A DNA stretch of 64,000 bases from Nocardioides albertanoniae (GTDB taxonomy: Bacteria; Actinomycetota; Actinomycetes; Propionibacteriales; Nocardioidaceae): positions 1,470,501 through 1,534,500 of the forward strand of contig NZ_VFOV01000001.1 of assembly GCF_006716315.1 (NCBI RefSeq), written 5' to 3'. Every line of letters begins with the position of its first letter. Within the stretch, counting starts at the first letter, position 1. Shown here piece after piece: positions 13,874 to 31,193 of the stretch. The position numbers and the translations under genes are program-made. The notes below the pieces were generated by a model that searched no databases, had not been told where the DNA came from, and saw only the letters and a list, made by a program, of their open reading frames with translations.

Positions 13874-15079
13874 CTAACGGGTAGGTGTGCCCATCAGCTC
13901 GTTGTCGAGCCGGGCCAGCTGGCCGGCCGCGAGCGCCCACATCGGCGAGCCCGGGGGCAGCAGATCGCGCTGACGGGTCCACATCTCGTAGTCGTCCGAG
14001 CCCCACGCCGAGCGGGTCCAGGCCGACATCAGGTCGGGCTGGCCGGCGTGCAGGATGGCGGCGCGCATCTGCTCGGTGAGAGCTTCCCGCAGGCGTACGA
14101 CACCGGGGGCTGTGGAGCGTGGCAGCAATGGTCCGCGGAAGGCTCGCAGGGCACCGGCGACGTCGCCGGAGGCGAGCAGCGCCTCGACCGCGAGCCAGTC
14201 GCCGCCGACGTCGGAGACGAGCCGGTAGGGACGCGAGGCGAAGAACGTGTCACCGAGCATGTGGCGCAGCCGGTTGAGCTCGGCGCGCAGGGTCGAGGAG
14301 CCGCCCTCGTCCTCGTAGAGCAGCACGCTGAGCTCGTCGCCGGAGAGGCCGCGCGGGGTGCTGGCGAGCAGCAGGATGAGCTCGCTGTGGCGTGGGGAGA
14401 GACGCATCCGGCCGGTGTGGCCGTGGTCGTCGTCGACCGTGAGCAGCGCGTCGTTGCGTCCGAGCGCCTCGATCGTGACGGTGGGACGTCCCGGCGACGC
14501 TGGTGGTTCCGAGACCAAGCGGTCGCGGGCGAGCTCGGTCTCCGCCAGTCGCACCGTGGCCCGGATGAGCGCCATCGTCTGGGGCACCACGATCTCGTCG
14601 CCGCCGGTGATGTCGAGCACGCCGAGCAGCTGCGAGCTGGTCGGGTCGTGGATGGGGGCGGCCGCACAGCTCCAGGGGCGCACGGCGTGACGGAAGTGCT
14701 CGCTGCGTACGACGCTGCTCGGCTGGTCGAGCCGCAGCGCGAGGCCTGGGGCGTTGGTGCCGGCGAGGCGCTCGTCCCAGTTGCTGCCCTCGACGAAGCC
14801 GATCGACTCGGTGCGGCGCAGCGCGGTGCTGGAGCCGCACACCCACAACAGCTGTCCGGCGTCGTCGGCGACCGCCATCACGGCGTCGCAGTCGCGGGCG
14901 GCCTGTCCGAGCACGTCGTCGAGGATCGGGAAGACCCGGGCGAGCCGATGCTCCGCGCGCGCCGAGTGGAGCGCCCCGCCGTCGAGGGTGATCGGCGCCG
15001 TCATCTCGTCGGCCGGCACCCCGGCCGCGGCCGAGCGGTGCCACGAGTCGGCGACCTCCGCGCGCATGCCCTTGTCCAT
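13874..15079 (-). CDS. GAF-domain transcriptional regulator (AcoR-like sensor with winged helix)
   Basis: The protein has 401 residues. A GAF sensor spans about residues 50-180 (DCDAVMAVADDAGQLLWVCGSS, then GTNAPGLALRLDQPSSVVRSEHF and SCAAAPIHDPTSSQLLGVLDITGG), the AcoR-type N-terminal layout. The AAA+ module of true sigma-54 activators is absent. Instead a winged-helix-like part follows (RLSPRHSELILLLASTPRGLSGDELSVLLYEDEGGSSTLRAELNRLRHMLG). I chose the ATG at 15079 rather than a TTG ten codons upstream, because the TTG lies inside a GTTGCAAC repeat. It sits between exaC, which it likely activates, and a divergent alcohol dehydrogenase. Confidence 0.82.
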   Translation of the reverse strand: MDKGMRAEVADSWHRSAAAGVPADEMTAPITLDGGALHSARAEHRLARVFPILDDVLGQAARDCDAVMAVADDAGQLLWVCGSSTALRRTESIGFVEGSNWDERLAGTNAPGLALRLDQPSSVVRSEHFRHAVRPWSCAAAPIHDPTSSQLLGVLDITGGDEIVVPQTMALIRATVRLAETELARDRLVSEPPASPGRPTVTIEALGRNDALLTVDDDHGHTGRMRLSPRHSELILLLASTPRGLSGDELSVLLYEDEGGSSTLRAELNRLRHMLGDTFFASRPYRLVSDVGGDWLAVEALLASGDVAGALRAFRGPLLPRSTAPGVVRLREALTEQMRAAILHAGQPDLMSAWTRSAWGSDDYEMWTRQRDLLPPGSPMWALAAGQLARLDNELMGTPTR

Positions 15080-15088
15080 CGATCCAGT

Positions 15089-15175
15089 GTGACACCGTTC
15101 ACGTTGCAACGGGGTTGCAACGTTTCTTTGCTTTGTCCGTCTGACCAGGGCAAAGCCTGCAACCGGATTGCAACC
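15089..15175. promoter_or_regulatory. GTTGCAAC repeat cluster in divergent promoter
   Basis: The gap between the GAF regulator and the alcohol dehydrogenase holds GTGACACCGTTCAC (15089-15102), then palindromic GTTGCAAC at 15103-15110 and 15114-15121 (11 bp apart). A second weaker pair follows, CTGCAACC at 15157 and ATTGCAAC at 15167. The first half serves the leftward regulator gene and the second half the rightward dehydrogenase. TTGCAA-type inverted sites are plausible targets for a GAF/AcoR-like protein; this is inference. Confidence 0.6.
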
Positions 15176-15250: not shown

Positions 15251-16444
15251 ATGCTCACGCTCGATGCACCGTCGTCCCCCGCTCCCCGAGACGTTCGACG
15301 GCTGCTGAAGTTCCACGTGCCCGAGATGGTCTTCGGGCTCGGATCGCTGGCCGAGGCCGGTTTCTGCGCCGGCCGCCTGGGCGCGCGCCGGCCCTTCGTG
15401 GTGACCGATCCCGGCGTCATCGAGGCAGGGTGGGTCGACGAGCTGCTGGGCCATCTCGCCGAGGTCGGTCTGAAGCCGCACGTCTGGGCCGGGGTGACGC
15501 CGAACCCGAAGGACCACGAGATCGAGGCCGCCTATCGCGCCTACGCCGACTACGGCGGCGACGTCATCATCGGGATCGGCGGAGGTTCCGCTCTCGACGC
15601 CGCCAAGGGCGTCGCGATCGTCAGCGGCAACGGCGGCTCGATCCGCGACTACGCCGGCGTCGACCGTGCCGAGCAGCCGATCCCGCCCCAGCTGATGATC
15701 CCGACGACCGCCGGCACCGGGTCGGACGTCTCGCAGTTCTGCATCGTCACCGACACGGCCAACGCTGTGAAGATGACGATCATGGGCCGCTCCCTGGTGC
15801 CGGACATCTCGGTGACCGACCCGCGGCTGCTGAGCACGATGCCACAGGACCTCGCCGCCGCCACCGGGCTCGACGCGCTGACCCATGCGATCGAGTCGTT
15901 CGTCTCGTTGGGGCACAACCCGCTGGCCGACGGGCACGCGCTCTCCGCCGCACGCCTGGTCGCCAAGGCGCTGCGCCGCAACGTCGAGGTGCCCGGCGAC
16001 GAGCGGGCCCGGCTGTGGATGGCGCAGGCCAGCCTCGAGGCGGGGCTGGCCTTCTCCAACGCGATCCTCGGGGCGACCCACGCGATGAGCCACCAGGTCG
16101 GCGGCCTCTTCGACCTGCCTCACGGGGTCGTCAACGGCGTGCTGCTCCCGCACGTCATCCGGTTCAACGCCGACGTGGTCCCGGAGCGGTTCGCGATGCT
16201 GGCCGATGCGATGGGGCTCCGCGTCGAGGGTGTGCCCGACCGTGAGGCGGCCGAGCTGCTGGCTCACTACGTCCAGGACCTCGCGGCCTCGGTCGGGGCG
16301 CCGCGACGGCTCGGTGCCCTCGGCGTGACCGCCGCCGACATCGACCGGATGGCGCTGACCGCCACCCGCGACGCCTGCCTGGCCACCAACCCACGCGCCG
16401 CCGCGAAGGAAGACATCGCCGGCATCTTCCGGGACTCGCTGTGA
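15251..16444 (+). CDS. Iron-containing alcohol dehydrogenase
   Basis: This is a 397-residue group III dehydrogenase. The NAD-binding loop is GIGGGSALDAAKGVAI, followed by MIPTTAGTGSDVSQFCIV. The metal ligands lie in GLDALTHAIESFVS, AILGATHAMSHQVGG and FDLPHGVVNGVLLPHVI. Relatives include 1,3-propanediol dehydrogenase and the ErcA proteins encoded beside alcohol-sensing kinases. Its last bases overlap the start of the histidine kinase gene, and the response regulator follows, so it belongs to a sensing operon. It could be a catalytic enzyme for primary alcohols or diols, a regulatory partner of the kinase, or both. From memory, Mycobacterium smegmatis has the same order near its methanol dehydrogenase gene. 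Confidence 0.9.
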   Translation: MLTLDAPSSPAPRDVRRLLKFHVPEMVFGLGSLAEAGFCAGRLGARRPFVVTDPGVIEAGWVDELLGHLAEVGLKPHVWAGVTPNPKDHEIEAAYRAYADYGGDVIIGIGGGSALDAAKGVAIVSGNGGSIRDYAGVDRAEQPIPPQLMIPTTAGTGSDVSQFCIVTDTANAVKMTIMGRSLVPDISVTDPRLLSTMPQDLAAATGLDALTHAIESFVSLGHNPLADGHALSAARLVAKALRRNVEVPGDERARLWMAQASLEAGLAFSNAILGATHAMSHQVGGLFDLPHGVVNGVLLPHVIRFNADVVPERFAMLADAMGLRVEGVPDREAAELLAHYVQDLAASVGAPRRLGALGVTAADIDRMALTATRDACLATNPRAAAKEDIAGIFRDSL

Positions 16445-17859
16445 CCACTCAGCCGCGCCCGTTCTCGGCCGCCGACATCGCCCGGCGCCTGCCGGACCTC
16501 GCCGCGCTCACCGGGGTGCGCTCGGGCAAGCAGACCTACTACTCGGCCTACCAACGCTCCAACGAGCGTCTGCAGCTCACGGTCGCCGCGATGGACTCCA
16601 TCTCCGGTGCGCTGGTCCACTCCGTCGAAGGTCCGCGGGCGCTGCTGGAGAAGATCGTGCGGGTCGCCTCGCACCACTTCGACGCCCGCTGGGCCGCGCT
16701 GGCGCTGACCTCCCAGGCCCTGCCGTCGACCCGTCCGCGTTTCCTGGCGATCGACTCCGAGGGAGCCATGATCGACGCCGCCGCCGATCTGGCCGAGGAG
16801 GCGACCCGTGCCATCCAGCGCGTCGAGTCGGGCGACCTGCCGGCCCGGGCGACCCAGGACGACGACGGCGTGGTCGTGGTCCCGATGCTGCTTGACGGGC
16901 ACGCGATCGGCGGTCTGGTCGCCGCCCCGCGGGACGACCTTCCGCTCGAGACCCCGGACCTGTCGGTGCTCCACATCCTCGCCAACCTGGCCGCGGTCTC
17001 GTTGCACACCGGCGACCTCTATCGCACCGGTCTGGCCCAGCAGCGACGTGCGCACCAGCTCTTCGAGGAGGTCTCCGAGCAGGCGCGGCTGCTCTCGGTG
17101 CGCGACGAGGAGCTGCGGGCGGCCGAGCAGCGGCTCCGTGTGGCCGACCAGCGCGAGCTGCTGGAGAACGAGCGTCGGCGGATCGCGCTCGAGCTCCACG
17201 ACAGCGTCGCCCAGACGGTGCTCAGCGCGGGTCTGGTGGTGGAGATGCTCCGGGGCGACTTCATCGGGGACGCGAGCGGGGCAGGTCGGCGTGACGTACG
17301 TCCTGAGCTGGATCGGGCGCGCGACCTGATGTCGACCGCGACCGAGCAGCTCCGATCGGTGATCTACGCGCTGAACCACGAGCGTGGCGCCGAGAACGTG
17401 GCGAGCCTGCCCGAGCTGCTGGCCGAGATGGCCGCCCAGCACCGTCCTCACCTCAACGTGCGGCTGCGCGTCGAGGGAAGCCCGGTGCCGATGGGTACCG
17501 CCGCCGAGCACGCGTTGGCTAGGACTGCCGGCGAGGCGTTGTTCAACGTCGCGATGCACTCCGATGCCGGCAAGGCGCTGGTGCGGCTGCGCTACCTCGA
17601 GGACTGCGTCGTCCTCCGGATCGGTGATGACGGCAACGGCGACCCCGCCGCGATGCGTCGCACCGTACGTCTGGCCCGCCGCGGCGCCGCTGACGGACGA
17701 CATCGGGGCCTGCTCGGGATGGCCCTGCGAGCCGAGGGGCTGGGCGGCACCCTCTCGATCCGCCGCTCCCGGGCCGGTGGCGTCGCCATCGAGTCGCGGG
17801 TTCCCCTGTCGGGCGTCACGCCCGGCCCCACCCGTACGCCCGAGGAGAGTGATGCGTGA
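16441..17859 (+). CDS. GAF-domain sensor histidine kinase (MnoS-like)
   Basis: The protein has 472 residues and no membrane segments, so it is a cytoplasmic sensor. A GAF-like domain lies about residues 60-190. A coiled stretch (RDEELRAAEQRLRVADQRELLENERRR) leads to the HisKA_3 dimer helix IALELHDSVAQTVLS, with the phosphoacceptor His253. The HATPase domain includes EALFNVAMHSDAGKALVRLRY and IGDDGNGDPAAMRR. It overlaps the dehydrogenase gene by four bases and the LuxR-type regulator gene by four bases. Context and order resemble the MnoSR pair reported for methanol use in Mycobacterium smegmatis, so an alcohol-derived signal is likely. The ligand is unknown. Confidence 0.87.
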   Translation: MTTQPRPFSAADIARRLPDLAALTGVRSGKQTYYSAYQRSNERLQLTVAAMDSISGALVHSVEGPRALLEKIVRVASHHFDARWAALALTSQALPSTRPRFLAIDSEGAMIDAAADLAEEATRAIQRVESGDLPARATQDDDGVVVVPMLLDGHAIGGLVAAPRDDLPLETPDLSVLHILANLAAVSLHTGDLYRTGLAQQRRAHQLFEEVSEQARLLSVRDEELRAAEQRLRVADQRELLENERRRIALELHDSVAQTVLSAGLVVEMLRGDFIGDASGAGRRDVRPELDRARDLMSTATEQLRSVIYALNHERGAENVASLPELLAEMAAQHRPHLNVRLRVEGSPVPMGTAAEHALARTAGEALFNVAMHSDAGKALVRLRYLEDCVVLRIGDDGNGDPAAMRRTVRLARRGAADGRHRGLLGMALRAEGLGGTLSIRRSRAGGVAIESRVPLSGVTPGPTRTPEESDA

Positions 17860-18542
17860 TGAGTGCTCCGGCCATCGTCCCCGCCCGAGCTCAGCAAGGA
17901 GCGGGCACCATCGGCGTCGTCCTGGTCGACGACCATGCGATGGTGCGCCAGGGCCTGCGCTCGGTGCTCGAGCGCGAGGCCGACCTGCGGGTCGTGGGGG
18001 AGGCGGGCTCCTCGGCGCAGGCGCTGGCCGTCGTCGCCTCCACCGCGCCCGACGTCGTGCTGCTGGACCTGCGACTCTCGCCGTCGACCGACAACGAGGG
18101 GATCGACCTGTGCGCGCGCCTGCACCAGGCCCATCCCGAGGTCGCCCTGCTCGTGCTGACGACCGTGATCGACGACCAGCTCGTCCTCGAGGCCATCCAT
18201 CGGGGCGCGCGTGGCTATGTGGTGAAGGAGGTCGACACCTCCGAGCTGGTGCGAGCGATCCGGGCCGTCAACCGCGGTGAGAGCGCCTTCGACTCCCGCA
18301 GCGCCGCGGCCATGGTGCGGGGGATCAACGCCGAGTCGGCCGCGGAGAACCGGCAGCTGACCGAACGCGAGCAGGACGTCCTCCGCCTGCTCGCGCGCGG
18401 CCTGTCGAACCGCGACATCGGCAAGCAGCTCTTCATCTCCGAGACGACCGCCAAGTTCCACGTCGGCAACATCCTGCGCAAGCTGCAGGTCAGCCGGAGG
18501 GCGGAGGCCGTCTACGTGGCGAGCAAGGAAGGCTTCATCTGA
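17856..18542 (+). CDS. NarL/LuxR-family response regulator (MnoR-like)
   Basis: The protein has 228 residues. The receiver domain carries acidic residues in VVLVDDHAMVRQGL, the phosphoacceptor Asp71 in VVLLDLRLS, and the conserved lysine in GYVVKEVDTSELV. The LuxR helix-turn-helix follows (LTEREQDVLRLLARGLSNRDIGKQLFISETTAKFHVGNILRKLQV). It is translationally coupled to the kinase gene. Its likely targets are the alcohol dehydrogenase and mycofactocin genes to the right, possibly through the inverted repeat between mno and mftA. That target assignment is inference from neighbourhood. Confidence 0.9.
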   Translation: MMSAPAIVPARAQQGAGTIGVVLVDDHAMVRQGLRSVLEREADLRVVGEAGSSAQALAVVASTAPDVVLLDLRLSPSTDNEGIDLCARLHQAHPEVALLVLTTVIDDQLVLEAIHRGARGYVVKEVDTSELVRAIRAVNRGESAFDSRSAAAMVRGINAESAAENRQLTEREQDVLRLLARGLSNRDIGKQLFISETTAKFHVGNILRKLQVSRRAEAVYVASKEGFI

Positions 18543-18556
18543 GCCGCCCGCTGCAC

Positions 18557-18590
18557 GGTCCTGGGTCGGCCCTAGGGCCGGTCGAGGACC
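18557..18590. terminator. Bidirectional hairpin between response regulator and mftM
   Basis: GGTCCT (18557-18562) pairs with AGGACC (18585-18590) around an inner perfect GGCCCTAGGGCC palindrome (18568-18579). The mftM stop codon is inside the inner stem. It separates two convergent genes. Confidence 0.65.
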
Positions 18591-19474
18591 AGCCAGCCAC
18601 CGTGGTGGTCGTGGACCTGCCACCGCCAGCCGCTGTCGGTCGCCAGGTCGGCGAGGTCGTCCGCGCTGAACGTCCGGACATGACCGTACGCGGCGGTCGG
18701 CTCGTCCTCGTAGGGCACAGCGACGATCACCCGGCGCCGGGCCAGCCGCTGCATCTCCCGCACCACCGCCAGACCGTGCTCGGGCGGCAGGTGCTCGAGC
18801 AGATGAAGGGCCACCACGGTGTCGAAGGAAGCCGCGGGTCGCGGCACGCGCGCTGCGTCGCAGATCAGCGTGCCCAGGCTCAGGCCGAGACGCGGGGCGA
18901 CCTGCGCCAGCAGCCGCACCGTGTTCGGCGTGAGGTCGCTTGCCGTCACGTCGCGGTCGGCTGCGCAGAGGAGGCTGAAGAACCCGAAGCAGCTGCCCAG
19001 CTCGAGCATCGACCCGGGATCGATCAGCGACCGGGCGTGGGCGTAGACCGGTGCGTAGCCGGCCAGCGATCCTTCGGCCAGGCCGCTGTGGGGCTCCGGC
19101 ACGTCGCCGGTGACTGGCGCGGTCAGCCGGTCGAGGGTGTTGGCGTAGAAGAGCGTCCACGCGGTCAGCGGGTCGACCGCGGAGCTGATCACGATCCCGG
19201 TCAGCAGCCGCTCGAAGAGCTCGCTGCCTTCCAGCCACCCCGGTGCGAACAGCTCGGTGGCGAGCAGGCCCGCGAGGTCGTTGTCGATCTGGTCGGCGGG
19301 CAGGTCGTGCACCAGGTGGACACGATCGTGGTCGGCCCAGAACTCGAACGATCGGGTCCGGTGCGCCGCGGCCGGGCCGGGGCGTCCGCGCACGACCTCG
19401 ACCAGCTCGTCCCGGTAGGCGCCGGAGGCGGTGCCGACCAGCGGGTCGATCGGCGGCGGCGCGGCCAGGCTCAT
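18572..19474 (-). CDS. mftM: Mycofactocin glycan methyltransferase (MftM-like)
   Basis: This 300-residue class I SAM-dependent methyltransferase has the SAM loop SMLELGSCFGFFSLLCAADRDVTASDLTPNTVRLL near residue 155 and the later motifs SFDTVVALHLLEHLPPEHG and RVIVAVPYEDEPTAAYGHVR. The N-terminal third (FEFWADHDRVHLVHDLPADQIDNDLAGLLATELF and SAVDPLTAWTLFYANTLDRL) is not a general methyltransferase feature. The place between the alcohol-sensing genes and mno matches, from memory, the mycobacterial gene whose product methylates the glucose chain of mycofactocin. The assignment rests on context plus fold. It overlaps the VWA gene by four bases. Confidence 0.75.
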   Translation of the reverse strand: MSLAAPPPIDPLVGTASGAYRDELVEVVRGRPGPAAAHRTRSFEFWADHDRVHLVHDLPADQIDNDLAGLLATELFAPGWLEGSELFERLLTGIVISSAVDPLTAWTLFYANTLDRLTAPVTGDVPEPHSGLAEGSLAGYAPVYAHARSLIDPGSMLELGSCFGFFSLLCAADRDVTASDLTPNTVRLLAQVAPRLGLSLGTLICDAARVPRPAASFDTVVALHLLEHLPPEHGLAVVREMQRLARRRVIVAVPYEDEPTAAYGHVRTFSADDLADLATDSGWRWQVHDHHGGWLVLDRP

Positions 19475-21006
19475 CGCCCCACCTCGGTCATGTGGGAGGT
19501 GACCAGGTCGAGCCCGGCGAGGTCGCGCACGATGTGCACGCGATCGCAGTGGGTGGCGTACGCCGGCAGGTCGCAGCTGCCGAGCGTCCAGGAGTAGCGG
19601 GGCTCGGGGGTGATCCAGATCGTCTCGCGAGCCCGCCGGGTGATCTCCTCGAACGCCGTGGTGCCGGGATCGTTGCCGTTGCCGCGTCCGTCGCCGAGCA
19701 CGATCACAGTCGTACGCCGGTTGATACCGCCCCCGAACTCGTCGAGGAACTGGGTGAACGCGGACCCGTAGTCGGAGTCGGCGTCGACGTCGAGGATGCC
19801 GCCGGCGGGCAGCCCGGACAGGGTCAGCGACAGCGCCTCCTCCATCTGGTGCTCGGCGAAGAGGTCGGTGACCTCGACGAGGTCGGAGACGAACGCGAAC
19901 GTACGCACCTGCGAGGCCATCCCCTGCAGGCCGTGGACCAGCTGCAGGGTGAACCGCGCGGCGGCGCGTACGGACAACGAGACGTCGGCGAGCACCAGCA
20001 GGCGAGGGCGGTCGGTCACCTTGGCGATCGTCACCGGTCGGAACGGCACCCCGTCGCTGCGCAGGTTGCGCCGCATCGTCCGTGACCCGTCGATGCTGCC
20101 GCGCGCGGCCTCGTGGCGGCGAGCGCGGGGAGCGCCGTGCAGGCTGCGGATCAGCCGGCGCAGCGAGTCCTCGAGGCTGGCGCGCTCGAGCTCGCCGATC
20201 CGGTCGACCTCCCGGACCTTCGCCTCGCGAGACTCGATGGCGGCGTCGGTCGCCATCAGCTCCTCGAGGTGGGCCTTCAACGCGTCCGGCAGACCGTCGA
20301 GGAGCCCGGCGAGCGAGGATCGGAGGGCGTCGAGCTCGTCGGGCTCGAGGGTCGCACCGGGCGTATCTGCCTCGGTGTCGTCGAGCCAGGCCAGCAGGGC
20401 CATCTCCTCGGACACGCTGAGCTCGACGTCCATCTGCGTCCCCGACCTGTCGAGGAGCCGGCCAGGACGGCCCGGGTTGTGCAGCCGGGAGGTGTCGAGC
20501 TGGACGCGAGCAGCCTCGGTCCGTGCGCCGGCGCCGTCGTTGGACAGGACGATCTCGTCGGTCATGGCGGCCATGTCGAGCTTGTTGGCCTCCTGGTGCA
20601 GGTTGTACTGCTGGGAGAGGTCGTCGGGATCGAAGTAGTCCCGGATGTCGTCCGGCTTGCCGTGGCTGTGGCCCTGGCTCGGGGTCTTGCCCGGCTCCTC
20701 GGAGAGCACGAACTCCTCGAGATCGCCCTCGTCGGAGAGGTCGTCGTGGGCATGGGAGTGCTCGTGATCGTCGTCGGCGTCGAGCACCGGTCGCAGGTTG
20801 AAGAAGCGCTCGAAGGTCCGCTCGAAGGTGGCCTCGTCGCGCTGGTCCTTGATCAGGGTCACCCGCAGCGCGCTGCGCAGCAGCGACCGGTTCTCGAGCA
20901 CACCGGGCGCGCCCGCCGCGCGGGACGCGTCGACGACCTCGGAGATGCCGATCCGGACGCCTTGCAGCCGCAGCAGGCGTACGAAGCGGTGGAGTGCGCC
21001 GTCCAT
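19471..21006 (-). CDS. CoxE-like VWA-domain protein
   Basis: The protein has 511 residues. The N-terminus (FVRLLRLQGVRIGISEVVDASRAAG) and C-terminal von Willebrand A domain fit the CoxE family. The metal-ion-dependent adhesion motif is DVSLSVR near residue 340, with TTVIVLGDGRGNGNDPGTTAFEEI later. The middle is highly acidic and contains HEHSHAHDDLSDEGDLEEF. CoxE proteins work with MoxR/CoxD-type AAA+ ATPases to mature metalloenzymes. Here the AAA+ gene is 19 bases upstream and the metal-dependent methanol dehydrogenase gene precedes that, so the pair probably activates Mno. It overlaps mftM by four bases. Confidence 0.85.
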   Translation of the reverse strand: MDGALHRFVRLLRLQGVRIGISEVVDASRAAGAPGVLENRSLLRSALRVTLIKDQRDEATFERTFERFFNLRPVLDADDDHEHSHAHDDLSDEGDLEEFVLSEEPGKTPSQGHSHGKPDDIRDYFDPDDLSQQYNLHQEANKLDMAAMTDEIVLSNDGAGARTEAARVQLDTSRLHNPGRPGRLLDRSGTQMDVELSVSEEMALLAWLDDTEADTPGATLEPDELDALRSSLAGLLDGLPDALKAHLEELMATDAAIESREAKVREVDRIGELERASLEDSLRRLIRSLHGAPRARRHEAARGSIDGSRTMRRNLRSDGVPFRPVTIAKVTDRPRLLVLADVSLSVRAAARFTLQLVHGLQGMASQVRTFAFVSDLVEVTDLFAEHQMEEALSLTLSGLPAGGILDVDADSDYGSAFTQFLDEFGGGINRRTTVIVLGDGRGNGNDPGTTAFEEITRRARETIWITPEPRYSWTLGSCDLPAYATHCDRVHIVRDLAGLDLVTSHMTEVGR

Positions 21007-21025
21007 GACTCAGCTCCCTCGCGGA

Positions 21026-22318
21026 TCAGAACGGCCGGCGGCGGCTCGCGAACGCGCGAGCGCCCTGGCCGGCGGACACGGAGCGGGCCGGTCCCATGGT
21101 GCCGGTCCCGTAGTAGGCCTCGTCGTGGCGTCCCGGCTGGTCCTTCGCGCGCCGCTCGGCTACCCCGTCGGGCTCGTCCTGACCGCCCTGATGACTGTGG
21201 TCACCGTGGCTGTGGTCACCGTGGCTGTGGTCACCGTGGCTGTGGTCACCGTGGCTGTGGTCACCGTGGCTGTGGTCACCGTGGCTGTGATCGCCGTGCC
21301 CGTGACCATGTCCGTGACCGTGGCCCTGGTGGAGGTCCGGGTCGGCGTTCGGGTCGACCAGGCGTGGCAGCGCCTCGAGGGTGCGCTTGAGGTCGCGGTC
21401 GTACTTCACCACGACGTTCGCGGTCGCCGCGAGCGTCTCGGCGCTCAGCTCCTCGGCACCCAGGACCGCGAGGGTGCGCGCCCAGTCGACGGTCTCGGAG
21501 ATGCTCGGCGCCTTGCGCAGGTCGAGCTCCCGCAGGCCGCGTACGACGTCGACCAGCTGTCGCGCGAGCTCGTCGGACAGGCCCGTCTTCTTGGACCGGA
21601 TGATCTCCAGCTCACGCTCGGCGTCGGGGTAGTCGAGGAAGAGGTGGAGGCAGCGGCGCTTGAGGGCGGCGGAGAGGTCGCGGCTGTTGTTGGAGGTCAG
21701 GATGACGTAGGGGAGGTGGACGGCCTCGAAGGTGCCGAGCTCGGGCACGGAGACCTGATACTCGGCGAGCAGCTCGAGCAGCACGGCCTCGAGCGCCTCG
21801 TCCGCGCGGTCGACCTCGTCGATCAGCAGCACGACGGGTTCCTCGGAGCGGATGGCCTCCAGCAGCGGTCGCGCGGCGAGGAAACGCTCGGAGAAGAAGG
21901 CGCTCTCCTCGGTCGCGATCGCCTCCACCGCCGAGGTCAGATCGGGGGCGTCGGCGACCAGCGAGCCGATCTTCTCGCGCATGAGCTGGGTGTAGAGGAG
22001 CTGGCGGCCGTAGTCCCACTCGTAGAGCGCGGTGGTCTCGTCCTGGCCCTCGTAGCACTGCAGCCGCAGCAGTTTGCGGCCCGTCACGGCGGCCAGCGAC
22101 TTGGCGAGCTGGGTCTTCCCGACGCCGGCAGGGCCCTCCAGCAGGACCGGCTTGTCCAGATGGGTCTGGAGGAAGACGGTGGTGGCCAGGCGCTCGTCGG
22201 CCAGGTAGCCCTGGTCGGTGAACTGGTCGATGACGTCGGCGACGCTTTCGAAGCCTGCGTGCGTGGTGGGCTCGGGGACGTCGGCGGACTCGAGGGGTTC
22301 GACGGGCTGTGCGTTCAT
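21026..22318 (-). CDS. MoxR/CoxD-like AAA+ ATPase with histidine-rich tail
   Basis: The protein has 430 residues. Walker A is GPAGVGKT at residues 62-69, Walker B is VVLLIDEVDRADEALEAVLLELLAEYQ, and sensor-type ILTSNNSRDLSAALKRRCLHLFLDYPD follows, as in MoxR/CbbQ/CoxD chaperone ATPases. After the AAA+ lid, residues about 330-376 form an extreme His tract: (HG)n followed by seven DHSH units, encoded by a 15-bp tandem repeat. About 50 basic, Gly/Arg-rich residues end the protein. Such tracts bind Ni, Zn or Co in metallochaperones. The gene lies between mno and the CoxE-like gene, suggesting metal delivery to methanol dehydrogenase. Confidence 0.87.
   Translation of the reverse strand: MNAQPVEPLESADVPEPTTHAGFESVADVIDQFTDQGYLADERLATTVFLQTHLDKPVLLEGPAGVGKTQLAKSLAAVTGRKLLRLQCYEGQDETTALYEWDYGRQLLYTQLMREKIGSLVADAPDLTSAVEAIATEESAFFSERFLAARPLLEAIRSEEPVVLLIDEVDRADEALEAVLLELLAEYQVSVPELGTFEAVHLPYVILTSNNSRDLSAALKRRCLHLFLDYPDAERELEIIRSKKTGLSDELARQLVDVVRGLRELDLRKAPSISETVDWARTLAVLGAEELSAETLAATANVVVKYDRDLKRTLEALPRLVDPNADPDLHQGHGHGHGHGHGDHSHGDHSHGDHSHGDHSHGDHSHGDHSHGDHSHQGGQDEPDGVAERRAKDQPGRHDEAYYGTGTMGPARSVSAGQGARAFASRRRPF
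21192..21300 (-). repeat. 15-bp tandem repeat encoding (GDHSH)n
   Basis: Six identical 15-base units (TCACCGTGGCTGTGG on the + strand) run from 21201 to about 21290, with degenerate edges. Each encodes five residues, giving a DHSH array of seven copies. It is coding, in frame and multiple-of-three, so copy number can change without breaking the gene. Confidence 0.9.
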
Positions 22319-22408
22319 GGGTGCCTCCTGGGGCGACGGGGCAGCGGGCAGCGGATGGGCATGAGAGCGGGCATGTCGGTGGATCGAGATGTCTGGGAGG
22401 TCGTGGAG

Positions 22409-22455
22409 TCGGTCCGGCCCGGGGGCACATGCCCCGGCCTCCCAGGCCGGACCGA
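22409..22455. other. Nested hairpin between mno and the AAA+ gene
   Basis: Perfect 11-bp arms TCGGTCCGGCC (22409-22419) and GGCCGGACCGA (22445-22455) enclose a second hairpin GGGGC-acat-GCCCC (22422-22435). It is in the mno to AAA+ intercistronic gap and may stabilise the mno transcript end or reduce readthrough. Confidence 0.5.
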
Positions 22456-22464
22456 GCAGGTGGG

Positions 22465-22495
22465 GATCCCGCCGGCCGGGCCGACCGGCGGGATC
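22465..22495 (-). terminator. Hairpin just downstream of mno
   Basis: Perfect 11-bp arms GATCCCGCCGG and CCGGCGGGATC enclose a 9-base loop, starting eight bases after the mno stop. It is likely a partial terminator that lets mno be expressed more than the AAA+, VWA and mftM genes downstream. Confidence 0.6.
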
Positions 22496-22502
22496 GCGAC
22501 GA

Positions 22503-23795
22503 TCAGGTCAGCAGGTCGTCGAGGTCGCCGTTCATGGCGTGGTCGACGACGGGGCGGACCGTCTCGAAGGTGCACTCCTTGGCGTTGCCCGGGGTGCAGG
22601 CGTCGCCGAGGACGTGGTTGGTGATGCGGTCGACGTCGGCGGCGTCTCCCTTGATGACCTTCGCGTTCTCGTAGTACTTGGTCGGGCCCTCACCGAGGCG
22701 GTTCTTGGAGTAGCTGTCCTTGGTGACGTCGACGAAGCGCTCCGGGATCCCGACGTCGCGCAGCAGCCGGATCGCGGCCTCGAGCGCGGCGTCGGCCGCC
22801 TGCGGCTTGGTCATGCCGTGGGTGTCGATACCCATCGCCTCGGCGATGTCGGCGAACCGTCCGTACTGGGCCGGCATGTTGAACGCCCACACGCGGGGGA
22901 GCGCGATGGCGTTGTTCAGGCCGTGGTGGGTGTCGTAGAACGCCGAGACCGCGTGCGAGATCGAGTGGATGATCCCCAGACCGCCGGAGTTGAACGCCTG
23001 GGCGGCGATGTACTGGGCATACATCATGCCCTCGCGGCCCTTGAGGTCCTGACCGTTCCAGACCGCCTCGCGCAGGTTCTCCGCGGTCAGCTTGATGGCC
23101 CGGATCGCGTTGCCGAGCGAGGGCTCGAAGTTCAGACGCGAGACGTAGGGCTCGGAGGCGTGCGCGAGCACGTCGAAGCCGCACTGGGCGGTGTAGTCGA
23201 TCGGGCAGTCGAAGTAGAGCACCGGGTCGTCGATGGCGAGGGTGGCGACCGAGGCGTCGTCGAACGCGACGTACTTGTGCGGGTTGTCCGGGTCGGTGGT
23301 CGTGTCGGTGATGACGTACGCCCACGAGGTCTCCGAACCGGTGCCGGCCGTGGTGGACACGGCGATGTGCGGAGGGTTGTTGGGGTTCTCGGACTTGTTG
23401 AAGCCCTCGAACTCGTTGACGTTGCGGCCGTCGTGGGCCACCGAGACGCGGGCACCCTTGCAGGCGTCGTGCGAGGATCCACCGCCGATGGAGATGAACG
23501 AGTCGCACTTGTTCTGCTGGTACAACGCCACGGCGTCCATGGAGTTGTAGTCCTTGGGGTTGGACTCGACCTGGTCGTAGACCACCGCGTCGAGGCCGTG
23601 GTACTTCAGCGAGTCCACGATCTTCTGCACGATGTTCGTGCCCCGGAGACCGGACGTCATGACCAGCGGTTTGGTGAACCCGAGCTTGATCGCCTCGGGA
23701 CCGATCAGCTCGTGGGATCCGGGACCGAGCAGCGCCCGCGGGAACGGGTGGAACTCCTTGATCGGGAAGGGTTTGAGCAGCTCGTCAACCTGCAT
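22503..23795 (-). CDS. mno: NDMA-dependent methanol dehydrogenase (mycofactocin-linked)
   Basis: This 430-residue group III metal-dependent alcohol dehydrogenase oxidises methanol and short primary alcohols with a tightly bound nicotinamide. The dye NDMA is the usual artificial acceptor, and mycofactocin is the presumed natural one. The nicotinamide-binding loop is SIGGGSSHDACKGARVS, followed by VSTTAGTGSETSWAYVITD. Metal-binding residues are in CGFDVLAHASEPYVS and IIHSISHAVSAFYDTHHGLNNAIALP. Both length and the N-terminus DELLKPFPIKEFHPFPRALLGPGS match the actinobacterial Mno/Mdo group. A strong AGGAGG site precedes the ATG. It is divergent from the mycofactocin operon and followed by AAA+ and VWA maturation genes. 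Confidence 0.93.
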   Translation of the reverse strand: MQVDELLKPFPIKEFHPFPRALLGPGSHELIGPEAIKLGFTKPLVMTSGLRGTNIVQKIVDSLKYHGLDAVVYDQVESNPKDYNSMDAVALYQQNKCDSFISIGGGSSHDACKGARVSVAHDGRNVNEFEGFNKSENPNNPPHIAVSTTAGTGSETSWAYVITDTTTDPDNPHKYVAFDDASVATLAIDDPVLYFDCPIDYTAQCGFDVLAHASEPYVSRLNFEPSLGNAIRAIKLTAENLREAVWNGQDLKGREGMMYAQYIAAQAFNSGGLGIIHSISHAVSAFYDTHHGLNNAIALPRVWAFNMPAQYGRFADIAEAMGIDTHGMTKPQAADAALEAAIRLLRDVGIPERFVDVTKDSYSKNRLGEGPTKYYENAKVIKGDAADVDRITNHVLGDACTPGNAKECTFETVRPVVDHAMNGDLDDLLT

Positions 23796-24097: not shown

Positions 24098-24202
24098 ATG
24101 TCCGCTCACCTCCCCAGCTCCACCGACGTCGACACAGACCTGATCGAGGAGGACCTCCTCGTCGAGGAGGTCTCGATCGACGGCATGTGCGGCGTCTACT
24201 GA
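24098..24202 (+). CDS. mftA: Mycofactocin precursor peptide MftA
   Basis: The precursor has 34 residues. The acidic leader (TDLIEEDLLVEEVSI) ends in the invariant core IDGMCGVY, whose final Val-Tyr pair is decarboxylated, crosslinked, excised and oxidised to give the cofactor. It has a good AAGGAG ribosome site and is followed after 13 bases by mftB. It is too short for routine gene calling but unmistakable by its C-terminus and neighbours. Confidence 0.97.
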   Translation: MSAHLPSSTDVDTDLIEEDLLVEEVSIDGMCGVY

Positions 24203-24215
24203 GAAGGACGAGACC

Positions 24216-24503
24216 ATGACCTCCTTCGACCCACAGGGCGCCTGGCGCCGCTCGCCCAGCGTCGTGATCCGGCCCGAGCCGTTCGGCGCCCTCGTCTACG
24301 ACTTCGGCTCGCGGCGGCTCTCGTTCCTCAAGGACCTTGCGCTCGTGCGGGTCGTGGAGGCGCTGGACGAGTCGGCCTCGGCACTCGGCGCGCTCGACGC
24401 CGTCGGTGTCGCCGAGGCCGACCGCCCGCAACACCTCGCGGCCCTCGCCGCCCTTGCCCGCTCCGGAATGATCAGCCAACGCCAGGAGGCGATCGCGTCA
24501 TGA
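24216..24503 (+). CDS. mftB: Mycofactocin biosynthesis chaperone MftB
   Basis: This 95-residue RRE-type (PqqD-like) peptide chaperone binds the MftA leader and presents it to MftC. The typical stretch is SPSVVIRPEPFGALVYDFGSRRLSFLKDLALVRVVEALDESASALGAL. It overlaps mftC by four bases. Confidence 0.95.
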   Translation: MTSFDPQGAWRRSPSVVIRPEPFGALVYDFGSRRLSFLKDLALVRVVEALDESASALGALDAVGVAEADRPQHLAALAALARSGMISQRQEAIAS

Positions 24504-25696
24504 CCCTGTTGGACCAGCACACCGAGAGGCAGCCCGTACCCCGGCTGATCGACCAGTTCGAGCACGGCCTCGACGCTCCGATCTGTCTGACCTGGGAGCT
24601 CACCTATGCCTGCAACCTGGCGTGCGTGCACTGCCTCTCGTCCTCCGGCCGCCGCGACCCGCGCGAGCTCTCCACCGACCAGGCCAAGGCCGTCATCGAC
24701 GAGCTGCAGCGGATGCAGGTCTTCTACGTGAACATCGGCGGAGGTGAGCCGACCGTACGTCCCGACTTCTGGGAGCTGCTCGACTACGCGGTCTCGCACG
24801 ACGTCGGCGTGAAGTTCTCGACCAACGGTGTACGCATCACCAAGGAGCGGGCTGCCCAGCTGGCCGCCTCGGACTACGTCGACGTGCAGATCTCGCTGGA
24901 CGGCGCGACCGCCGAGGTGAACGACGCGGTGCGCGGTCGCGGCTCCTTCGACATGGCCGTCCGGGCGCTCGCGAACCTCCAGGAGGCCGGCTTCACCGAC
25001 GCCAAGATCTCCGTCGTCGTCACCCGCGAGAACGTACGCCAGCTCGACGAGTTCCAGGAGCTGGCCGACCGGTACGGCGCGACCCTCCGCATCACCCGGC
25101 TGCGCCCCAGCGGTCGCGGCGCCGACGTGTGGGACGACCTGCACCCCACCGCCGAGGACCAGCGCTACCTCTACGACTGGCTGGTCGAGAAGGGCGAGCG
25201 CGTCCTGACCGGCGACTCCTTCTTCCACCTCGCCGCCTTCGGAGATGCCCTCCCGGGCCTGAACCTGTGCGGCGCCGGCCGTGTGGTCTGCCTGATCGAC
25301 CCGGTCGGCGACGTCTACGCCTGCCCGTTCGCGATCCACGACAAGTTCCTGGCCGGCAACCTGCTCACCGACGGCGGCTTCAAGAAGGTGTGGCAGGAGT
25401 CCACACTCTTCCGTGAGCTGCGCGAGCCGACCTCCGGCGGCGCCTGCATGTCGTGCTCGGCGTACGACGCGTGCCGCGGCGGCTGCATGGCGGCCAAGTT
25501 CTTCACCGGTCTGCCGTTGGACGGGCCGGACCCGGAGTGCGTCAAGGGCAACAGCCAGGTCGCGCTCGCCAACCGGGACGGCTCCGGTCTGCCGCAGCCG
25601 TCCCAGGACCACTCGCGGTCCGACGCGGTCCTGCTGGGTATGCCCGGCAGGCCGACCAAGCTGCCCGACCGGTTCTGCAACGAGAGCCCTGTATAG
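24500..25696 (+). CDS. mftC: Mycofactocin radical SAM maturase MftC
   Basis: MftC uses S-adenosylmethionine and iron-sulfur clusters to decarboxylate the C-terminal Tyr of MftA and then form a Val-Tyr crosslink. The 398-residue protein has the radical SAM motif CNLACVHC with Cys38, Cys42 and Cys45. The SAM-binding NIGGGEPTVRPDF follows. A SPASM domain for extra clusters includes LCGAGRVVCLIDPVGDVYACPF and CMSCSAYDACRGGCMAAKFF. Gene order and overlap with mftB support the call. mftD follows after 11 bases. Confidence 0.97.
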   Translation: MTLLDQHTERQPVPRLIDQFEHGLDAPICLTWELTYACNLACVHCLSSSGRRDPRELSTDQAKAVIDELQRMQVFYVNIGGGEPTVRPDFWELLDYAVSHDVGVKFSTNGVRITKERAAQLAASDYVDVQISLDGATAEVNDAVRGRGSFDMAVRALANLQEAGFTDAKISVVVTRENVRQLDEFQELADRYGATLRITRLRPSGRGADVWDDLHPTAEDQRYLYDWLVEKGERVLTGDSFFHLAAFGDALPGLNLCGAGRVVCLIDPVGDVYACPFAIHDKFLAGNLLTDGGFKKVWQESTLFRELREPTSGGACMSCSAYDACRGGCMAAKFFTGLPLDGPDPECVKGNSQVALANRDGSGLPQPSQDHSRSDAVLLGMPGRPTKLPDRFCNESPV

Positions 25697-28386: not shown

Positions 28387-29873
28387 TCCGCGAGCTGCCC
28401 CGTGGGACGGTGCTCAGGCTGCTCCAGAGCACGTGGCGCGGTGAGGAGGGCCGGGCGCTCTACGGTGGCGCGCCCGCCCGGATGCTGTTCCTGAAGGCGG
28501 CCGCGGTCGAGGCGCTCGGCGAGGGCGAGATGGTCGTCGACTCGCCGCGAACCGCTCGGCTGGGCCGTCTGCTCCTGGACCGAGGTCTTGCCGAGATCGC
28601 ATGGTCTCCGCGGCGCGCGGGCAGTGCGGACGTCACCGTCGTCGTTCCGGTCAAGGACCGGCCCGCCGCCCTGGCCCGGCTGCTGGAGGCGCTGGCGGGG
28701 CTCCACATCATCGTGGTCGACGACGGATCGTCCGACCCCGTCGAGACCGAGCAGGTCGCGGCGGCCGCCGGCGCCGACCTGCTGCGCCACGACCAGTCCC
28801 GCGGCCCCGCCGCGGCCCGGAACACCGGGCTGAGGGCGGTACGCACGGAGCTGGTCGCCTTCATCGACTCCGACGTCGTCCCGGTCGATGGCTGGCTGGA
28901 GCCGCTGCTCGTCCAGGTCGGTGACCCGGCCGTCGGGATCACCGCTCCGCGCATCGTCGCGCTCGAGCGCGGGCTCGGGCCGGGCGTACGCCTGAGCCGC
29001 ATCGACCGCTACGAGTCGGTGCGTTCCTCGCTGGACCTCGGCGCGGCAGCCGCCCTGGTCGTGCCCGGCGGACCGGTCCCGTATGTGCCCTCCGCCTGCC
29101 TGGTCGGCCGAACGGCCGCGTTCGGGGAGGGGTTCGACGAGGCGATGAGGGTCGGAGAGGACGTCGACCTGGTCTGGAGGACCGTCGAGCAGGGGTGGCT
29201 CGTCCGCTACGTGCCCGAGTCGCGGGTCGCGCACGAGCACCGGGGCACGGCGGCCGGCTGGCTCACCCGCAAGGCGTTCTACGGCACCAGCGCGGCGCCC
29301 CTCGCGATGCGTCACCACGACGCGGTCGCGCCGGTGATCGTCGCGCCCCTCACGGTCGCGGTCGGTCTTGTCCTGGTGGCGCAGCGCCCGTGGGCGCTGG
29401 GCATCGGCGCCGGGATCGGTGCCGCGGTGCTCGCGAGGACCGCGCGCTCCATGCGACAGAGCGAACACCCCGGGATCGTCGCTGCCCGTCTCGTGCCGTA
29501 CGGCCTGGCGGCCTCGGCCAAGCAGTGTGCCGCGGCGATGAACAGACACTGGTGGCCGGTCATGATCCCGGCCGCCCTGGCGTCGCGGCGGATCCGGCGC
29601 GCCTGGGTCGCCGCGGCCCTGCTCGACGGGCTGGCCGACTGGTCACGATCCCGACCCGACCTGGACCCGCTCACCTACACCGCTCTGCGCCGCCTCGACG
29701 ACCTCGCCTACGGTGCGGGGCTGTGGTGGGGCGCCGTCCGGCACTCCACCACGGCCCCGCTCCGGCCGGCGCTGTCGCGCCCGTTCAGGCGCGGACCGGG
29801 GCACCGAGCGGAAGGGCGCGGCCTCCGGTGGCCTGGGACATGGCGTCGAGGAACAGGTACGCCCCCACGATGA
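28383..29873 (+). CDS. mftF: Mycofactocin glycosyltransferase MftF
   Basis: This 496-residue family 2 glycosyltransferase adds the beta-1,4-glucose chain to mycofactocin. The nucleotide-sugar core is VTVVVPVKDRPAALARLLEALAGLHIIVVDDGSSD, followed by SRGPAAARNTGLRAV, the metal-binding FIDSDVVPVDGWL and an EDVDLVWRTVEQGW motif. Hydrophobic stretches near residues 310-360 suggest membrane association. The ATG overlaps the SDR stop by four bases. The last 30 residues are arginine-rich, low in complexity and antisense to the acetate transporter gene, with an 89-base tail-to-tail overlap. Confidence 0.95.
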   Translation: MIRELPRGTVLRLLQSTWRGEEGRALYGGAPARMLFLKAAAVEALGEGEMVVDSPRTARLGRLLLDRGLAEIAWSPRRAGSADVTVVVPVKDRPAALARLLEALAGLHIIVVDDGSSDPVETEQVAAAAGADLLRHDQSRGPAAARNTGLRAVRTELVAFIDSDVVPVDGWLEPLLVQVGDPAVGITAPRIVALERGLGPGVRLSRIDRYESVRSSLDLGAAAALVVPGGPVPYVPSACLVGRTAAFGEGFDEAMRVGEDVDLVWRTVEQGWLVRYVPESRVAHEHRGTAAGWLTRKAFYGTSAAPLAMRHHDAVAPVIVAPLTVAVGLVLVAQRPWALGIGAGIGAAVLARTARSMRQSEHPGIVAARLVPYGLAASAKQCAAAMNRHWWPVMIPAALASRRIRRAWVAAALLDGLADWSRSRPDLDPLTYTALRRLDDLAYGAGLWWGAVRHSTTAPLRPALSRPFRRGPGHRAEGRGLRWPGTWRRGTGTPPR

Positions 29874-30378
29874 CGAACGCGAACACGGTGTAGCCGCCCA
29901 GCTGGGTGAGGAGCGTGCTGGCCTGCGCGGTGCCGAGGAGCACCAGCAGCAGCGCCAGGTCGATCAGCCCGAAGAGCACCGTGAAGGCGCGCGGCAGCCG
30001 CAGGGTGGCCAGGGTGAGCAGCACGATGACGGCGAGCCAGGATCCGAGGAACAGCTCCTGGGTCCGGGCCGTGTCGGCGGCCTGGATGCCGAACCAGCCG
30101 TGGGTCAGGCCCAGCACGAGGGCGGCGTAGCTCGACCAGAACCCGGTGAAGATGCCGAAGATGGCGGCCACGGCGTTCTGGTTGAGACGGGTCGCCCAGA
30201 TCGCGGCGATGCCCTGCCCGAATGCGGTCGCCGTGGCGATGATCGGGATGGACGCCGCGACCGCGGTTGCGGGGACGAAGCCGGTCAGCACGAGGCCGAG
30301 GGCCACGGAGCCGACCAGGAAGGTCGGGACCCCGATGAGGGCGGGATTGCCGTCGGGGACGGTGGTTTCAGCGGACAT
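29785..30378 (-). CDS. Acetate uptake transporter (GPR1/FUN34/SatP family)
   Basis: This 197-residue protein has six hydrophobic helices. The family signature NPALIGVPTFLVGSVALGLVL lies near the N-terminus, and FGQGIAAIWATRLNQNAVAAIFGIFTGFWSSYAALVLG in the middle is typical. It likely takes up acetate or related short acids by proton symport. I chose the ATG at 30378, which has a GGAGG site six bases upstream, over a TTG four codons further out. The context of poxB, adk and acs supports an acetate role. Its 3' end overlaps the end of mftF. Confidence 0.88.
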   Translation of the reverse strand: MSAETTVPDGNPALIGVPTFLVGSVALGLVLTGFVPATAVAASIPIIATATAFGQGIAAIWATRLNQNAVAAIFGIFTGFWSSYAALVLGLTHGWFGIQAADTARTQELFLGSWLAVIVLLTLATLRLPRAFTVLFGLIDLALLLVLLGTAQASTLLTQLGGYTVFAFVIVGAYLFLDAMSQATGGRALPLGAPVRA

Positions 30379-30602
30379 GAGAACCTCCAAGGATTGATGT
30401 CCTTGTCACTGTCCCGACCTGGGGTCCGCTGCACACCCTGCGAGCAGGTCGCAGTTGGCCCTGCCTGGTCGGAGGGTATCGACCCGCCCGAGGGCGAGGC
30501 TCCCCATCGTGCAACGTGACTGCAGCGGTGCGGCGCCTAGCCTGCGACCAGGTGTGATCGCCGGGCCTCCGGCGCGAGTGACGACGAAAGGCTCCCCACC
30601 GC

Positions 30603-31184
30603 ATGCGACTGCTTCTGATGGGCCCGCCGGGTGCGGGCAAGGGCACCCAGGCCACCACGATCGCCGCTCGTTTCGGCGTGCCGGCGATCTCGACCGGTGA
30701 CATCTTCCGGGCGAACGTCGCCCAGCGCACCGAGCTGGGCGTGCTGGCCGACGCCTACATGAGCGCGGGCGACTACGTGCCCGACGAGGTCACCAACGCG
30801 ATGGTCGCCGACCGGCTCGCCGAGGCCGACTGCGCCGACGGCTTCCTGCTCGACGGCTATCCGCGGACGCCCCAGCAGGTCGCCGAGCTCGACGCGATGC
30901 TGGAGCGGTGCGGTGTCGAGCTCGACTCGGTAGTGCTGCTCGAGGCCGACTCCGAGGAGCTCGTACGCCGCCTGCTGCTCCGGGCGCAGGAGCAGGGGCG
31001 TGCCGACGACACCGAACCGGTCATCCGCCGGCGGCTCGAGGTGTACGCCGCCGAGACGGAGCCGTTGGCCGCTGCGTACCTCGATCGGGGTGTGCTCGTC
31101 AGCGTCGACGGCCTCGGTTCGATCGAGGAGGTCGCCGAGCGGATCATGGCTGTCCTGGCCCCCGAACCGGTGGTCGTGGAATAG
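30603..31184 (+). CDS. adk: Adenylate kinase, short form
   Basis: The enzyme interconverts ATP, ADP and AMP. The 193-residue protein has the P-loop [15 protein letters not shown] at residues 7-21, the AMP site [10 protein letters not shown] and the [17 protein letters not shown] motif. Residues between [18 protein letters not shown] show a short LID without zinc cysteines. It is ten bases upstream of a pyruvate oxidase gene rather than beside secY, so it may be a second copy linked to acetate metabolism, where Acs produces AMP. Confidence 0.93.
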
Positions 31185-31193
31185 GTTGGCAGC

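Follow-up and report, generated by a model that had tools for sequence, protein, structure and literature searches.

Among the closest described counterparts of the gene pair considered here is NorQ/NorD, an AAA+ ATPase and a protein with a von Willebrand factor A (VWA) domain that serve iron insertion into the cytochrome c nitric oxide reductase and are of the same kind as ours, together with CoxD/CoxE and MoxR pairs, to which the VWA protein of this study is linked by its match to the Pfam family VWA_CoxE. The pair analyzed here is encoded next to the gene of Mno, the actinobacterial enzyme that oxidizes methanol and ethanol with mycofactocin, in a 64,000-nucleotide stretch of Nocardioides albertanoniae (contig NZ_VFOV01000001.1, positions 1,470,501 to 1,534,500; hereafter the window). 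As NCBIfam holds the families MadB and MadC (NF047784 and NF047783), such a pair is already on public record as an annotation; the open-access literature did not reveal where the name Mad comes from, and excerpts of that literature yielded no functional study of the pair's effect on Mno. Genome surveys indicate that the pair very likely serves Mno, and what is new for a MoxR AAA+/VWA pair is the client family, an iron-type alcohol dehydrogenase (Fe-ADH), and the presence of histidine tracts on both partners.

The gene set of the window is matched, by published annotation, by the mno operon of Mycobacterium smegmatis (MSMEG_6242-6236 with MnoSR), whose genes are listed as alcohol dehydrogenase Mno, ATPase AAA, hypothetical protein, 1,3-propanediol dehydrogenase, MnoS, S-adenosylmethionine (SAM)-dependent methyltransferase, and MnoR (PMC11303327, PMC7174638, PMC6529628; here and below, PMC numbers refer to excerpts of the respective papers). 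The operon is under MnoSR control (PMC11303327), the cluster MSMEG_6236-6242 responds to ethanol and mycofactocin, and MSMEG_6242 is indispensable for ethanol use (PMC6529628). Overexpression of MSMEG_6241 was tested once, for rifampicin sensitivity (PMC6529629), while the excerpts of papers naming MSMEG_6240 or MSMEG_6241 otherwise give expression or abundance (PMC7174638, PMC8406134).

In the window, a minus-strand block runs from 23795 to 18572 and contains, in this order, mno (22503..23795; N,N-dimethyl-4-nitrosoaniline (NDMA)-dependent methanol/alcohol dehydrogenase with a group III Fe-ADH fold; TIGR04266, 680.9 bits, cut-off 625), the gene of a 430-residue, 47.1 kDa AAA+ ATPase of the NorQ/CbbQ/MoxR kind (21026..22318), the gene of a 511-residue, 56.3 kDa CoxE/NorD-like VWA protein (19471..21006), and mftM (18572..19474; mycofactocin oligosaccharide methyltransferase; NF041255, 315.3 bits, cut-off 200). 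The genes and coordinates of this convergent block, with the (HG)n-(DHSH)7 tract in the AAA+ protein and the CoxE-like nature of its partner, are thus as a preliminary description of the locus had given them. The AAA+ and VWA genes are separated by 19 bp and the VWA gene overlaps mftM by 4 bp, and the three therefore look co-transcribed.

A first set of loci consisted of the best 80 of 487 relatives, found among at least 593 stretches matching peptide patterns. In 79 of these 80 loci, Mno was encoded immediately upstream and in the same orientation, the remaining match starting 94 bp from a contig end, and the VWA gene followed the AAA+ gene in all 80. Because these loci had been picked by similarity, unselected genome surveys were run. 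In a sample of 295 genomes of the class, Mno exceeded the TIGR04266 cut-off at 14 loci of 13 genomes, and the AAA+ gene was directly downstream at every one of them. Using a line of 600 bits, chosen by us (one like gene elsewhere scores 564), AAA+ profile matches were found at nine loci in nine genomes of this sample, all adjoining Mno, and none was found among the at most six candidates scored per genome in the 282 genomes without Mno (at most six and five candidates per genome in the class surveys). Likewise, the AAA+ gene stood beside 34/34 Mno loci in 248 genomes of the order of genome G491, and beside 17/18 in 296 genomes of the phylum (E ≤ 1e-80, among the matches listed), where the lone exception was a Mno gene reaching the contig edge. 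When the three samples, which overlap and comprise related rather than independent genomes, were pooled, the AAA+ gene lay less than 300 bp downstream of Mno at 51 of the 52 distinct loci, which come from 51 genomes (gaps of 15-295 bp between matched stretches), the 52nd being at a contig edge. The linkage extends across Mno proteins sharing only about 50% identity and is far beyond chance, and the pair being common without mno, which the preliminary description had named as a refuting case, was looked for and not encountered for AAA+ genes of the window's type. A VWA gene adjoined the AAA+ gene in 12 of 14 fetched loci (exceptions: L107 and, at a contig edge, L109), and all three genes were found in a further 29/29 fetched loci.

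The same surveys indicate which property of the locus the pair follows. MftC was above its cut-off in 42 of the 51 Mno genomes; the other nine belong to one family of another class and encode Mno-like proteins of 360-536 bits, with best scores of 115 bits for MftC (cut-off 265) and 289 for MftD (cut-off 470.85). As eight of these nine genomes retain the AAA+ gene beside Mno, the ninth (G155) being ended by a contig edge, the AAA+ gene tracks the iron-type dehydrogenase and not the cofactor, and a role of the pair in making or transferring mycofactocin was rejected on the same grounds. A further control made use of TIGR03989, which we take to be the NDMA-dependent, mycofactocin-linked, nicotinoprotein-type zinc alcohol dehydrogenase (Zn-ADH). 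Matches to it occurred in 28 of 34 Mno genomes (98 of 100 over the cut-off), and an AAA+ gene (matches at E ≤ 1e-90, 33 genomes) was within 500 bp at 0/100 of these loci, with two loci having one about 3 kb off. Hence, neither a bound nicotinamide nor a link to mycofactocin requires the pair by itself, and the loading of bound nicotinamide, which the preliminary description had offered as an alternative for Mno, is disfavoured as a general task. The nine distant loci are L097 and L102-L109 (genomes G200, G174, G194, G216, G062, G232, G125, G145, and G155); a VWA gene follows at L097, L102-L106, and L108, and several of the distant Mno-like proteins have a longer C-terminus.

Protein comparisons were made on a set of 134 loci (80 + 11 + 14 + 29) plus the window, from which 19 rows were dropped (six with identical Mno, five with Mno shorter than 400 residues, four without Mno, two without the AAA+ or VWA protein, and two with a VWA protein shorter than 400 residues), leaving 116. 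The AAA+ protein matched PF07728 (AAA_5) best, with 56.8 bits, and the MoxR-type family PF07726 with just 32 bits; its closest sequences in the PDB were Midasin, NorQ, and CbbQ. The Walker A pattern G..G.GKT was present in 114/116 rows, the misses likely being the incomplete pieces L018 and L144, and residues G62-G65, G67-T69, D167-E168, and R221-R222 were invariant in the 20 rows of alignment A1. The VWA protein belongs to PF05762 (VWA_CoxE; 107.8 bits, cut-off 26.4) and carries a metal-ion-dependent adhesion site (MIDAS) motif, DVSLS, at residues 341-345 (19972..19986, minus strand), for which the expression D[VI]S.S was matched in 115/116 rows. Like NorD, it joins an N-terminal domain through a flexible linker to a VWA domain that bears the MIDAS, and chain G of the NorQD entries came first among the Foldseek matches of its AlphaFold model, by which its fold was assigned as NorD-like; the sequences are far apart, with 14-16% identity in the aligned part. 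Residues 77-118 and 133-196 of the model fall below a predicted local distance difference test (pLDDT) score of 50 and form the predicted disordered linker. Unlike in NorQ/NorD, whose client is a membrane reductase, the client here is a Fe-ADH and both partners bear His tracts.

Both proteins of the window stay below the curated cut-offs of MadB (NF047784, 378.7 vs. 475) and MadC (NF047783, 291.9 vs. 600). Three loci that exceed the MadB cut-off (L091, L092, and L094) have the AAA+ and VWA genes in the same order beside a paralogous Mno, 62-66% identical to that of the window, and thus represent a sister type; at two of the three (L091 and L094), Fe-ADH, MadS, and MadR follow, and, unlike in the window, neither protein of the three loci contains an H-x-H motif. 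This paralogous, MadA-like Mno with an AAA+/VWA pair of its own was also noted at L113, L129, L136, and L140, with identities of 61-66% where measured, and genome G255 holds both types. AAA+ relatives of about 300 residues are widespread in the phylum, at least one more being encoded in the genome of the window. In contrast to AAA+ proteins of the window's type (at least 600 bits, one 564), other relatives reached about 309-408 on the A1 profile and were located away from Mno (among the matches listed); since the AAA+ proteins of MadB type beside Mno score 386-429, the A1 score alone cannot separate the types.

On the side of the enzyme, the best structural matches of Mno were Bacillus methanolicus Mdh structures (template modelling score normalised by query 0.82-0.84 for the top two), and Mdh is its closest solved relative, with the same fold. 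Residues D208, H212, H281, and H291 of Mno, aligned to Mdh (8zwd), are invariant in the 29 rows of alignment A3 and are presumably the metal ligands of the Fe-ADH fold. The C-terminal helices and the conserved C400 are directly preceded by an insert of about 25 residues (about residues 358-386); it was found in all Mno types compared (shorter in L110), and neither in Mdh nor in the second Fe-ADH of the window, and may serve in docking or as a lid. The activator protein of B. methanolicus Mdh is a Nudix hydrolase, unlike the AAA+/VWA motor.

The histidine-rich C-terminal tract of the AAA+ protein, (HG)n-(GDHSH)7, comprises residues 321-385 with 20 His (21164..21358, minus strand) and is partly coded by a 15-bp tandem array of 6.9 copies (21195-21298, 97% matches). 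The VWA protein has a cluster of its own, HEHSHAH...GHSH, at residues 81-115 (20662..20766, minus strand), with H81, 83, 85, 87, 113, and 115 inside the predicted disordered linker. Leaving out L018 and L144, whose AAA+ sequences are incomplete, 114 loci were compared: H-x-H occurred in both proteins at 98, in neither at 15, and in the AAA+ protein alone at one. At least three consecutive GDHSH units were present in the window alone, and the (GDHSH)7 array as such seems to be of recent origin. Tails of unlike sequence still contain H-x-H in 99/114 loci (median 11 His, range 4-21), from which we conclude that the His composition is conserved, and chance repeat slippage was set aside as an explanation of the AAA+ tail. 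Given that 15 loci, including those over the MadB cut-off beside Mno, do without either tract, the tracts are a linked yet dispensable feature, and the His tail as the pair's defining feature, as in the preliminary description, is not supported. In one set, Mno carried T237/V395 in 74/74 His-bearing rows, and V/I at 237 and I/M at 395 in 10/10 His-less rows; since the His-less rows form few clades (three changes on the tree), this split probably reflects shared ancestry and was not counted as evidence.

Published expression data of M. smegmatis tie the pair and Mno to zinc. In a zur mutant, MSMEG_6240, MSMEG_6241 (ATPase AAA), and MSMEG_6242 (Mno) changed by -24.4, -24.6, and -27.6-fold, respectively, followed by -4.6 to -6.4-fold for the three genes in the smtB mutant and -3.0 to -4.6-fold in zinc excess; MSMEG_6239 was -4.7-fold in the zur mutant and listed as zinc-independent, and MSMEG_6237 was +7.4-fold with a zinc chelator and -11.2-fold in zinc excess (all PMC7174638). 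MSMEG_6241 is up together with MSMEG_6242 in mft mutants (PMC8406134).

The best single reading of these data, to which we give about an even chance, is that the pair works as a motor in the manner of NorQD, opening Mno for the insertion or exchange of its metal. The insertion or repair of the metal had been suggested in the preliminary description, and it fits the NorQD-like fold, the paired His tracts, and the changes of expression with zinc in M. smegmatis (PMC7174638), with the transfer of the metal itself being inferred. In such a mechanism, the AAA+ protein would form a ring, by analogy with NorQ, in which the VWA domain would be seated, gripping Mno via its MIDAS site. ATP turnover would twist the linker between the N-terminal and VWA domains of the VWA protein and thereby open a Mno subunit, so that the metal at D208/H212/H281/H291 could be inserted, exchanged, or repaired. 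Both His-rich elements, the tail of the AAA+ protein and the cluster in the VWA linker, would be located on one face of the ring, where they would hold metal ready, as a helpful store and not as the motor. The fuller version, in which a NorQD-like, ATP-driven, zinc-tuned metal insertase acts on the Fe-ADH fold and the His tracts of both partners feed in metal at the ring's mouth, is possible rather than probable.

Several points weigh against metal insertion. The ligands of Mno are those of ordinary Fe-ADHs, a family thought, as far as we know, to take up its metal unaided, and we know of no such motor for FucO or Mdh, both active without one. The complex, the transfer of metal, and any assignment of that metal are putative; the NorD match of the VWA model equals those of other VWA domains in Z-score, and the model itself, with a mean pLDDT of 68, is of moderate quality. 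At L107, Mno and the AAA+ protein occur without an adjoining VWA gene, a weak VWA match being several kb off. The His tracts are dispensable on the evolutionary scale, as seen from the 15 loci mentioned above, with about four changes per His trait on the Mno tree and three independent pairs on supported branches (two agreeing, none opposing, one without difference), a number at which significance is unreachable. The M. smegmatis pair, from another organism, could be of either subtype, with or without His tracts. The zinc-excess values of MSMEG_6240 and MSMEG_6241 are bracketed in the published table, and the zinc effect may be indirect, because no Zur site was predicted on these genes (PMC7174638). 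Mno is perhaps not the sole client either, since a second Fe-ADH (a like gene of at least 45% identity, cross-hits to Mno excluded) is in the cluster at 51/80 loci in the extent fetched, which short contigs limited for some of them. This second enzyme (15251..16444, plus strand; PF00465/PF25137; ErcA model 453.4, below the cut-off of 550) is probably the counterpart of MSMEG_6239 and may be a further, though not constant, client of the motor; as the sole client it was rejected, considering that Mno was present in 79/80 loci.

Other tasks of the motor were ranked behind metal insertion or exchange. It is unlikely that it acts as an activase, opening Mno so that tightly bound NAD(P) can be loaded, ejected, or repaired, in the way Rubisco activases eject inhibitory sugars, for the presumably nicotinoprotein-type TIGR03989 enzymes lack an adjoining AAA+ gene at all 100 loci; CbbQ being among the closest solved relatives of the AAA+ protein, the Mno-specific insert directly preceding the C400 segment, and the non-exchangeable NAD of some mycofactocin-linked dehydrogenases (PMC3023750) would all suit it. 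Somewhat more doubtful is a chaperone that assembles or takes apart Mno in the manner of RavA with decameric LdcI. Mno is a decamer too, but its relative Mdh of B. methanolicus, with 10 chains in 8zwd, is not known to need such a motor. In favour of assembly are also the cage formed by the MoxR ATPase RavA with its decameric enzyme (PMC6987120) and the joint rise of MSMEG_6241 and MSMEG_6242 without mycofactocin (PMC8406134).

Two further explanations leave the opening of Mno aside. The His tracts could sense or absorb zinc as a metal buffer or brake that keeps the wrong metal out of Mno, consistent with the lowered expression of MSMEG_6240-6242 in zinc excess (PMC7174638), which speaks equally for such protection, and with tails of unlike sequence remaining His-rich; we hold this to be improbable, as the pair is retained beside Mno even where the tracts are lost. 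Amycolatopsis methanolica has a dye-linked methanol dehydrogenase of three components; that the pair forms its large component and relays electrons from Mno is the least probable reading of all, given that family profile searches detected no redox domain in either protein. The subunits of that component are near 44 and 72 kDa, which can be compared with the 47.1 and 56.3 kDa of the AAA+ and VWA proteins and is the point in its favour. Against it, mycofactocin with MftG already provides a route to respiration (PMC11778925).

The near-constant adjacency points to an unstudied machine that makes Mno active or keeps it so, most likely via metal loading. If a dedicated motor is needed, studies expressing Mno alone may handle a half-made enzyme, and engineered methylotrophy or glycol use would have to include the pair. 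The system would also offer a new client for testing the poorly understood mechanism of metal insertion by MoxR/VWA proteins. If the pair is indeed an insertase, it would be the missing factor for the activity of mycofactocin-linked alcohol dehydrogenases in other hosts.

The spacing between mno and the AAA+ gene in the window is 184 bp and includes a strong hairpin without a T-run (22464..22495, minus strand; folding compared with shuffles). This gap folds with z < -2 (30 mononucleotide shuffles) in 67 of the 86 loci with a usable gap, out of 114, and hairpins without a T-run are common there; as no intrinsic terminator was listed in the gap and the hairpin has no T-run, a terminator between mno and the AAA+ gene was set aside. 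By means of this hairpin, the cell may produce far more Mno than motor. Inverted repeats were listed in the mno/mft promoter; a MnoR palindrome there was considered and set aside too. The methyltransferase gene mftM presumably corresponds to MSMEG_6237, annotated as a SAM-dependent methyltransferase. At this locus, Nocardioides phosphati is the closest relative that bears a name, with Mno at 94%.

Convergent with the mno block, on the plus strand (15251-18542), the second Fe-ADH gene is followed by those of a MadS/MnoS-like histidine kinase (16441..17859; NF047786, 457.4, below the cut-off of 500) and a MadR/MnoR-like response regulator (17856..18542; NF047785, 337.3, cut-off 300). The mycofactocin cluster is divergent from mno and comprises mftA, mftB, mftC, mftD, mftE, a short-chain dehydrogenase/reductase gene, and mftF. 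Its precursor peptide gene mftA (24098..24202, plus strand; 34 residues) was recognized by the C-terminal ending SIDGMCGVY, which we take to be the mftA motif; the radical SAM maturase gene mftC is at 24500..25696 (plus strand; TIGR03962, 658.7, cut-off 265). Both mftA and mftB (95 residues), at 24098-24503, are below the 100-residue limit of the open reading frame list and easily overlooked. Divergent from the second Fe-ADH, at 13874-15109 (minus strand), is the gene of a regulator with a GAF domain that weakly resembles DhaR (64.8 bits). Directly beyond the mft cluster, the interval 29785-32918 contains an acetate-transporter-like protein (28.9 bits, below the cut-off of 50), an adenylate-kinase-like open reading frame judged by eye, and a quinone-dependent pyruvate dehydrogenase (955.5 bits, cut-off 792).

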